Part shown: positions 9,319 to 27,897 of the stretch, piece by piece | Layout of the letters: every line of letters begins with the position of its first letter | Numbering within the stretch: position 1 is the first letter of the stretch | DNA from: Sphaerobacter thermophilus DSM 20745 | GTDB taxonomy: Bacteria; Chloroflexota; Chloroflexia; Thermomicrobiales; Thermomicrobiaceae | Length of the DNA: 64,000 nt | Direction: 5' to 3' | NCBI RefSeq assembly: GCF_000024985.1 | Contig: NC_013523.1 | Coordinates: 2,232,001 to 2,296,000 of the forward strand | Made by a program: the position numbers and the translations under genes | The notes under the pieces: model-generated | The model's database searches: none | What the model was told of the DNA's origin: nothing | What the model saw: only the letters and a program-made list of their open reading frames with translations

Positions 9319-10302
9319 TCACGACAGCAGCGACTTGAACTGCTCCATGCTGGCTCCTCCGTGGATGCGCAGCCGGGGAAGGAGCAGTTGGTCCTGCTCA
9401 GCCGTGGCCCGGCCGCCCTGGGTGGTCACCGCGATCTCATAGCCGGCGTCCCGCACCGCGGCTACGCTGCGCTGGTCGAAACGGCCCACCGGGTAGCAGA
9501 AGGCGCGCACCGGATGGCCCAGGTGCGCCTCCAGGGCCTGCTTGCTGTCCATCACCTCGGCCCGCACCTGCGCCTCCCCCAGCGACGGGAGCTGGTGGTG
9601 CGACACCGTGTGCGACCCGATCTCGACCAGGCCGGAGCGGTCCATCTCCGCGATCATGTCCCAGGTGACGTACGGCGGCTGATCCACCGCGCCGGTGATG
9701 ACAAAGAGCGTGGCCTTGAAGCCGTACTGCTTAAGCACCGGAAAGGCAGCGGTGTAGAAGTCCCGGTAGCCGTCATCGAACGTGAGCACGATCGGCTTGG
9801 GCGGCAGGGGGCGGCGCCGGGCCCGGACATCGGCCAGTTCACCCAGCGTGATCGGGGTGTAGCCCTCCTGTGCCAGCCAGGCCATCTGCTCGGCGAATCG
9901 TTCCGGACTGACCGAGAGGTCACGGCCGATCGAGTCACCCGGCCCCGGGTCGGGACGGACGTAGTGGTACATCAGGATCGGCACCGGAGTGATCTGGCCC
10001 TGCGGCTCCGGAGTCGGCGTCGGCGTGGGTGTGGGCACCGGCGTGGGCGTCGGCTCCGGGGTAGGCGTCGCCGTCGGTGTGGGTCGTGGGGTTGCCGTCG
10101 GTGTGGCGACCGGAATTGGTGTGGCGGGCACGCGCGTTGCGAGCGGGCGCTCGGGAGTCGCGGGGGTTGGGACCTCCGGCGTAGCCGGCCCCGCGGCGAT
10201 CACGGGAAGGAGGATGGTCGACGTGGGGATCGAGAGATTGAAGAGCGCAACGGCGAGCACCAGCAGCCCCAGCACCAGTCGGGGCCACACCGGCTCGCGC
10301 AT
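9319..10302 (-). CDS. Membrane-anchored polysaccharide deacetylase (NodB domain)
   Basis: A 327-residue exported carbohydrate esterase. It begins with an uncleaved or cleavable signal/anchor (about residues 6-36), followed by an about 70-residue Pro/Thr linker of TPTP-type repeats, then a CE4 NodB domain. The metal and catalytic motifs are VLTFDDGYRDF (Asp pair) and HTVSHHQL (His pair), with CYPVGRFD further on. It likely N-deacetylates peptidoglycan or another surface glycan. The ATG at 10302 has GAGGGGAAG upstream and is preferred over a TTG at 10329. Confidence 0.93.
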   Translation of the reverse strand: MREPVWPRLVLGLLVLAVALFNLSIPTSTILLPVIAAGPATPEVPTPATPERPLATRVPATPIPVATPTATPRPTPTATPTPEPTPTPVPTPTPTPTPEPQGQITPVPILMYHYVRPDPGPGDSIGRDLSVSPERFAEQMAWLAQEGYTPITLGELADVRARRRPLPPKPIVLTFDDGYRDFYTAAFPVLKQYGFKATLFVITGAVDQPPYVTWDMIAEMDRSGLVEIGSHTVSHHQLPSLGEAQVRAEVMDSKQALEAHLGHPVRAFCYPVGRFDQRSVAAVRDAGYEIAVTTQGGRATAEQDQLLLPRLRIHGGASMEQFKSLLS

Positions 10303-26613: not shown

Positions 26614-26651
26614 GAAGAAAAAACTCCCCTCTCCCACTGTTGGGAGAGGGG
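26614..26651 (-). terminator. Hairpin terminator of the VKOR/DsbA operon (family A repeat)
   Basis: An 11-bp stem (26626-26636 with 26641-26651) closes a CTGT loop. On the minus strand it is followed by AGTTTTTTCTTC, a good rho-independent terminator. On the plus strand no T-run follows. A family A copy thus appears to serve as a terminator 56 bp past the VKOR stop. Confidence 0.7.
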
Positions 26652-26707: not shown

Positions 26708-27157
26708 TCAGGCGATCTCGCTCTCCCCGGCGCCGAGGAAGCGCCAGAGGAGGACGCCCTCAGCGACCAGGATGCCGAGGGTCAGCACCGCCGACGTGAC
26801 GCACCACTGGCAGATGGCCTCGATCACGGCGATCTCGAGGTACGTCAGGTAGGCCGCGTAGAGCGCGCCGGAGAGGACCAGCGCGAAGGCGGCCATAGTG
26901 GCGGTGCTGGCCCAGGCCGGCCGAGTCCGGCGGAGGAATCCCAGGCCGATGACCGCGAGGTACATCCCCATCCCGAGGATCGAGATGGGGATGCCCGCAA
27001 TCTCCGCATAGGGGCTGTTCTGCACCGTCTTGCAGTCGCCGACGGTGCAGACGAGTGCGCCGGTGTCGTAGTGGCTGTAGGTCAGGTATCCGGCGACCAG
27101 CACCCCTGGGATCGCCAGGGCCAACGAGGCGGTCTGCCAACCAGTTCCGCGGATCAC
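26708..27157 (-). CDS. VKOR family disulfide-generating membrane protein
   Basis: About 149 residues with four to five membrane helices. Vitamin K epoxide reductase homologues reoxidise DsbA-like proteins using quinones. The active-site CxxC is CQWC, and a loop pair is seen as CTVGDCKTVQNSPYAEIAGIP with the conserved Ser/Asn region. The GTG at 27157 overlaps the stop of the DsbA-like gene by four bases (GTGA), so the two are coupled. The frame is open upstream to 27325, but there it reads through the DsbA gene in another frame. Confidence 0.92.
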   Translation of the reverse strand: MIRGTGWQTASLALAIPGVLVAGYLTYSHYDTGALVCTVGDCKTVQNSPYAEIAGIPISILGMGMYLAVIGLGFLRRTRPAWASTATMAAFALVLSGALYAAYLTYLEIAVIEAICQWCVTSAVLTLGILVAEGVLLWRFLGAGESEIA

Positions 27158-27897
27158 TGCCCCAGTGCCTGATCGATCGCGGCCTTCAGCGTCTCCCAGC
27201 GACCGTTCCAGCCCTGCAGGAGCTGGCCGTTGATCATAATGCTCGGCGTCCCGGTGACCCCGGCCTCTTTGGCCTCGTTGTACATGGCCTCGACGTCCTG
27301 CTTGTGCGTCCGGTTGTCGTAGCATTCGTTGAACGCTTCCATGTCCAGGCCAACTTGCCGCGCCATCTCCTTCAACCGGGCCTCGCTGAAGGCGCCCTGA
27401 TTCTCCCCGCGCTGGTTCAGGAAGACCGTGTCGTGATACTGCCAGAACTTGCCCTGGTCCTCGGCGCAGAAGGCTGCCTCGGCCGCGCGGGTCGATTCCG
27501 CTCCCAGGAAGGCGAAATCGCGATACTCAAAGGTGATCTTCCCGGTCGCGACATACTCCTGAATGAGCTGCGGCTTCACCGCACGGGTGAAGTAACCACA
27601 GCCTGGTCATTGATAGTCGCCCCACTCCACCACGTGGACCGGCGCGCCTTCCTGCCCCATGACGCGCCCGTTGGTCGGGATGCTCGCGTCCGGCGGCGGC
27701 GCCACCGCGATGTCCGAGACGTCCTCGCTGCCCTGCGGCCGGTTGAGCAGGATCAGCACGACGGCTGCGATCAACGCGACAGCGACCAGACCGCCAAAGA
27801 TCGACATCTGCCGCCGTCGCCGCGCCGCTCGCTCCGCCGCCAGCCGGCGCTCCGCTCTGCGGGAGCGCCGTGCCTCCCGCTCTGATTGGCGACTCAT
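27154..27897 (-). CDS. DsbA-like thiol oxidoreductase with in-frame TGA at the active site; probable selenoprotein (Sec-Pro-Gly-Cys)
   Basis: Read with TGA (27609-27607) as selenocysteine, the gene encodes 247 residues: a basic N-terminus, one membrane anchor (about residues 31-52), a short linker, then a thioredoxin/DsbA domain. The residues around the TGA are HVVEWGDYQ-U-PGCGYFTRA, so the TGA replaces the first Cys of CxxC (U97, C100). The cis-Pro loop GVTGTPSIMING is intact and the frame has no other stop. A SECIS-like hairpin begins 4 bases after the TGA. The ATG at 27897 has GGAGGAG directly before it. It overlaps the VKOR gene, its likely oxidising partner. Alternatives are a one-base TGC-to-TGA lesion or sequencing error, which would split it into 27607-27897 and a fragment from GTG 27579. 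Confidence 0.88.
27567..27609 (-). promoter_or_regulatory. Candidate bacterial SECIS element with its UGA codon
   Basis: After the UGA (27609-27607) and 4 bases, a 7-bp lower stem pairs GCUGUGG (27602-27596) with CCGCAGC (27573-27567), including one G-U pair. A 3-base bulge UUA follows on the 5' side. Then a perfect 7-bp upper stem pairs CUUCACC (27592-27586) with GGUGAAG (27580-27574), and the loop is CGUGC (27585-27581). The loop lies 21 bases after the UGA and has G at its second position. These values fit the known bacterial SECIS rules (loop 16-37 bases from UGA, G among the first two loop bases). Confidence 0.8.

Follow-up and report, generated by a model that had tools for sequence, protein, structure and literature searches.

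Proteins related to DsbA or DsbG with a UxxC active site, in which selenocysteine (Sec, U) occupies the position of the first cysteine of the CxxC motif, have been described on several occasions (PMC1088965, 2005; PMC1794560, 2006; PMC2398784, 2008; PMC9312934; PMC13188914). The DsbA-like selenoproteins of this kind (PF01323), among them those from the Sargasso Sea and GOS data, share with the gene described here the Sec residue at the first CxxC cysteine and a SECIS hairpin which follows the UGA and contains a G in its loop; however, they derive mostly from metagenomes or from other phyla, and the available text of the surveys mentions no link to VKOR (PMC1088965, PMC2398784, PMC13188914). 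The DsbG-like family NF041057 (Rcas_1661 family thioredoxin-like (seleno)lipoprotein; PF13462) possesses the same domain and the same UxxC motif. Against its model, the protein studied here reaches 140 bits, which is under the curated cut-off of 190 and places it outside the family, while a selenoprotein from another genome of the class, G061, passes with 279 bits. Moreover, unlike the NF041057 family, our protein has an N-terminal membrane helix and is encoded next to a VKOR gene. Similarly, DsbA of Mycobacterium tuberculosis (Rv2969c) is membrane-tethered and has an adjacent VKOR (Rv2968c), and its second cysteine pair, which forms the disulfide Cys140-Cys192, has a counterpart at positions 144 and 192 of our protein; the active site of the M. 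tuberculosis enzyme, in contrast, is Cys-Pro-Ala-Cys and lacks selenium (PMC3792642).

The gene from Sphaerobacter thermophilus DSM 20745 presented here is a sibling of those for the already known UxxC DsbA proteins; its product carries a membrane anchor, and a VKOR gene is its neighbor. A literature search returned no paper combining VKOR, selenocysteine and DsbA, which is weak evidence as many journals were outside the search; S. thermophilus is named in a paper on tRNA-Sec, within an AhpC alignment, which does not include this gene. The strain has been described as strictly aerobic with a growth optimum of 55°C (PMC3035262). The predicted protein, a Sec-DsbA located beside VKOR, would add to the known selenoenzymes one from a thermophile that is obligately aerobic and can be cultured.

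An in-frame UGA in a dsbA-like gene

The window, i.e. the whole 64-kb stretch of DNA that was analyzed, is part of a genome of 3,993,764 bp in two contigs; two replicons have been reported for the strain (PMC3035262). On the minus strand, the reading frame from 27897 to 27154 comprises 247 codons followed by a TGA stop and has a sole internal stop, the TGA at 27609-27607, which represents codon 97. As originally predicted, this TGA falls on the first cysteine of the DsbA CxxC motif, in the context GDYQ-[TGA]-PGCGYF, where homologs lacking the TGA have TGC or TGT. Reading it as Sec yields the active site U97-P-G-C100, with Cys100 (27598-27600) as the resolving cysteine. The signs of an intact gene to which the prediction had pointed are all present: the frame is undisturbed, cis-Pro is kept as P218 within GTGTP (27244-27246), and there is a four-base overlap, GTGA, with the next gene (27157-27154). 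Mechanical ORF calling splits the gene, as had been anticipated, into products of 117 aa (27960-27607) and 141 aa (27579-27154), and the gene model is corrected here where the standard procedure gives two fragments. A scan of the whole window for single TGA codons with the coding signature of the genome on both sides identified three places, of which that at 27609 is the only convincing mid-gene TGA. The remaining two, at 9321 and 8244, resemble by their position ordinary gene ends followed by another ORF in the same frame.

The genes required as a check on the prediction, those for tRNA-Sec, SelA, SelB and SelD, all occur in the same genome. The tRNA-Sec with anticodon UCA scores 74.1 bits (cut-off 47), SelB 359 bits with its full length covered, SelA 527 bits and SelD 380 bits. 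SelD has an in-frame TGA of its own (TLASCAGUASKMGPE), so that the dsbA-like gene is probably not the sole client of the Sec machinery in this organism. SelD, encoded at G000:C1:928852-929787 (G000 being the window genome), is itself a predicted selenoprotein.

Recurrence of the UGA and the downstream hairpin

A search with the read-through protein covered 158 genomes from the class, and the aligned codon was read in 41 homologous genes, namely the best matches and those others on the list that have one in-frame TGA. Codon 97 is TGA in 16 of these listed genes and TGC or TGT in 25; cysteine was therefore found in all 25 non-TGA homologs among the matches listed, as the prediction demanded. In all 16 listed TGA-bearing genes the TGA falls at the identical codon, an agreement far beyond chance, and about 150 further codons are kept in frame behind it. 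The second cysteine of the motif is retained in 41 of the 41 listed homologs. The 16 genes stem from 14 genomes, the window genome and 13 others, which belong to several families. A clear tRNA-Sec was identified in ten of the 14, and SelB in three of the remaining four, which are drafts. The last draft, G072, has neither tRNA-Sec nor SelB above the cut-off in spite of its UGA-containing dsbA; its genome may be incomplete, or Sec decoding may have been lost recently. One genome of the same order as the window genome, G104, harbors three DsbA paralogs (L034, L054, L055), each with UGA at the active-site codon. A scan of genome contigs with protein fragments matched the Cys-type gene of Sphaerobacter sp. 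HOG56 and other relatives; it was left out of the counts, as one fragment demands cysteine at the site and the scan is biased against Sec genes.

Directly downstream of the UGA, the RNA is predicted to fold into a SECIS-type hairpin (27566-27603, minus strand) of 15 pairs, interrupted by a bulge of 3 nt; its energy is -22.3 kcal/mol, and its z-score relative to dinucleotide shuffles is -3.1. It consists of a lower stem (27603-27596/27573-27566), the bulge UUA, an upper stem (27592-27586/27580-27574) and the loop CGUGC (27585-27581). The upper part, CUUCACC-CGUGC-GGUGAAG, presents its loop from 21 nt after the UGA. A small apical loop containing a G, as seen here, has been described as a feature of bacterial SECIS elements (PMC1088965). 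Fourteen aligned TGA genes share the same stem at the same distance, with the loop CGUGN at +21, and among the TGA genes stem pairs are altered on both sides, as G-C/A-U and C-G/U-A compensations. In these 14 genes 82.7% of the cells are paired, a value reached in none of 500 shuffles and compared with 34-52% in slid controls, whereas the 25 Cys genes do not keep the stem (47% paired, about the level of the slid controls). The TGA genes of G061 and G064 have a stem of 6-7 bp located three bases closer to the UGA. The same two genes (L057, L058) encode UTAC in place of UPxC.

Hairpin strength with a G in the loop separates Sec from Cys genes (Mann-Whitney p 4e-6), a value which is optimistic, given that the genes compared share ancestry and that this test was adopted once the stem had been seen. 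It replaced a test in which the minimum free energy was calculated over all 54 nt following the codon and, compared with synonymous shuffles, did not separate the two groups. For the window gene on its own, comparison with synonymous recoding gives a borderline result for the hairpin (P 0.054); the SECIS evidence is comparative and drawn from related genes. A scan of the region against Rfam gave no match. When a covariance model of the hairpin was run on the whole genome, it recovered this gene alone (69.5 bits, a training sequence), followed by a match of 19 bits with E 0.12; thus, the model found no further Sec clients.

The same evidence bears on two trivial explanations of the UGA. As the two nearest relatives have an intact Cys gene, and as 40 pseudogenes have been reported for S. 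thermophilus (PMC3035262), a nonsense mutation might have turned a Cys-type dsbA into a pseudogene while VKOR is still expressed. However, the sole lesion would then have struck the one residue at which Sec is useful, at a codon that is also UGA in 13 further genomes from the class, in a genome with the Sec apparatus and in front of a SECIS hairpin, and the 150 codons past the TGA retain the frame, the invariant cysteines, the cis-Pro and the VKOR overlap. We regard decay of the gene as very improbable. That the codon is really TGC or TGT, misread in sequencing or assembly, appears even less probable: the TGA reading depends on one assembly of this organism, but that is a published hybrid 454/Sanger assembly (PMC3035262), the sequence that follows the codon folds into the hairpin typical of Sec genes, unlike that of the Cys sister, and independent assemblies have TGA at the same codon. 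Thus, the original reading of a UPGC selenoprotein is supported by the Sec apparatus, by the recurrence of the UGA in 14 genomes and by a hairpin specific to the TGA genes. The gene is predicted, with a high degree of confidence, to encode a selenoprotein with a Sec97-Pro-Gly-Cys100 active site. SelB with Sec-tRNA(UCA) would bind the hairpin just after the UGA, which would then be decoded as Sec.

Predicted fold and the VKOR neighbor

The protein matches PF13462 (Thioredoxin_4, 125 bits) and PF01323 (DSBA, 65 bits). In a structural model by AlphaFold2 with 41 sequences (mean pLDDT 90.5), residue 97 directly precedes the helix that begins at 98. Taken with the Pfam matches, the structural matches given below and the invariant Pro218, the model agrees with the DsbA family pattern of a thioredoxin fold with a helical insertion, a UxxC or CxxC motif at the start of helix 1 and a cis-Pro loop. 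Invariant alignment columns are 97 (Cys or Sec), Cys100, Cys144 (27466-27468), Cys192 (27322-27324) and Pro218; Cys144 and Cys192 are probable partners in a second, structural disulfide. A basic N-terminus is followed by a hydrophobic stretch at about residues 31-52 (27742-27807), which is part of a helix spanning residues 5-52 in the model, and we infer a topology in which this membrane helix anchors an extracytoplasmic DsbA domain. The partner of Bacillus subtilis BdbD is the DsbB-like BdbC. BdbD was the best structural match in Foldseek (3eu4), followed by DsbA proteins from corynebacteria, Wolbachia, staphylococci and M. tuberculosis; the similarity to BdbD (3eu3, 3eu4) amounts to a target-normalized TM of 0.85 at 26% identity, although its active site is a CxxC with cysteine, unlike the UxxC of the window protein.

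The downstream gene (26708-27157, minus strand), whose GTG start overlaps the dsbA stop within GTGA, encodes a VKOR protein (PF07884, 93 bits). It is adjacent and co-directional, and its translation contains the loop cysteines (CTVGDC) and a CxxC motif (CQWC). Of the 41 listed loci, several of which are cut by contig ends, 21 have a VKOR gene directly behind the dsbA homolog, among them those of the Sec genes of the window genome, G104 and G138; most of the distant Sec genes have none at this position. Behind VKOR, at 26626-26651 on the minus strand, a strong hairpin of terminator type followed by a T run (11-bp stem, then AGTTTTTTCT), which is a match to the intrinsic terminator consensus only, would close the two-gene dsbA-VKOR unit.

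Judged from sequence, VKOR is the probable re-oxidant of this DsbA, and fold and operon together suggest, with good though not full confidence, a DsbA-type oxidase that is re-oxidized by VKOR. Such a membrane-anchored, extracytoplasmic thiol oxidase, with Sec97 as the attacking residue of its CxxC-type site, would act on exported proteins, oxidizing their thiols by way of a selenenyl-sulfide (Se97-S100), and VKOR, coupled to it in translation, would restore it and pass the electrons to quinone. Reduction of a selenenyl-sulfide should be more difficult than that of a disulfide, which could be taken to favor a selenoprotein that acts as a DsbG/DsbC-like disulfide isomerase or reductase, or as another reductant, instead of as an oxidase paired with VKOR. 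The nearest UxxC family is indeed named DsbG-like in reviews (PMC13188914). Against such a role, BdbD and DsbA proteins lead the list of fold matches, VKOR overlaps downstream, and the model lacks an N-terminal dimerization domain of the DsbC/DsbG type; we consider it unlikely.

Sec decoding competes with termination. In addition to its role in the oxidase, the UGA might act as a regulated stop, by which the selenium status sets VKOR output: where selenium is available, the complete enzyme would be produced along with the coupled VKOR, and where it is lacking only a 96-residue anchor stub. As the VKOR start overlaps the dsbA stop, VKOR translation might be expected to drop when selenium is scarce; however, VKOR may start independently, and we hold this additional function to be rather doubtful.

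The Sec/Cys split within the genus

The two other genomes of the genus, G112 (84% identical) and G113 (69%), have cysteine at codon 97, and both possess tRNA-Sec and SelB despite the Cys gene. Such natural Sec and Cys orthologs within one genus make the effect of selenium versus sulfur on a disulfide-forming pathway testable. In a protein tree with site 97 masked, at least six Sec/Cys changes are required, three of them forced by well-supported branches, with gain and loss being indistinguishable by count.

A comparison of fourfold degenerate sites between the window genome and G112 revealed an uneven distribution of differences along the gene: 6 of 54 sites differ in codons 1-96, 15 of 25 in codons 97-170 and 5 of 28 in codons 171-247. 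VKOR differs at 3 of 103 sites, and the flanks at 69 of 491 (22 of 222 in the upstream AI-2E-type transporter gene, 47 of 269 in the MFS gene). Codons 97-170 differ from the flanks with a Fisher p of 5e-8, and with 2e-6 if the hairpin region is taken out (codons 110-170); both values are optimistic, as the limits of the segment were seen in the data before being tested. Selection on amino acids or on the hairpin hardly explains silent changes across 60 codons, whereas they would be accounted for if either lineage had had this segment replaced. A tree built on the catalytic domain groups G112 with G113 and leaves the window gene outside (96/91), while for codons 1-96 the window gene is joined with G112, a conflict in line with segment replacement. 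A donor is absent from the set of genomes; the nearest sequences to the segment are those of G112 (81%) and G113 (76%).

It might be speculated that, in S. thermophilus, a stretch of about 220 nt, starting at the active-site codon of a Cys-type dsbA, was replaced by the UGA and SECIS element of a diverged allele. Replacement could be imagined as import into the window genome or as loss of Sec in the sister, and we put forward the import as a tentative possibility. If true, the switch from Cys to Sec would have occurred in a single recombination step, leaving the N-terminal part, VKOR and the flanks still near the Cys sister. The Sec/Cys split inside the genus and the sharp block of divergence at the UGA may serve as a case for how such switches happen. 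Relative to the sister gene (L063), silent-site divergence jumps at the UGA and remains elevated over about 74 codons (27609-27388), with the flanks and VKOR being nearly identical.
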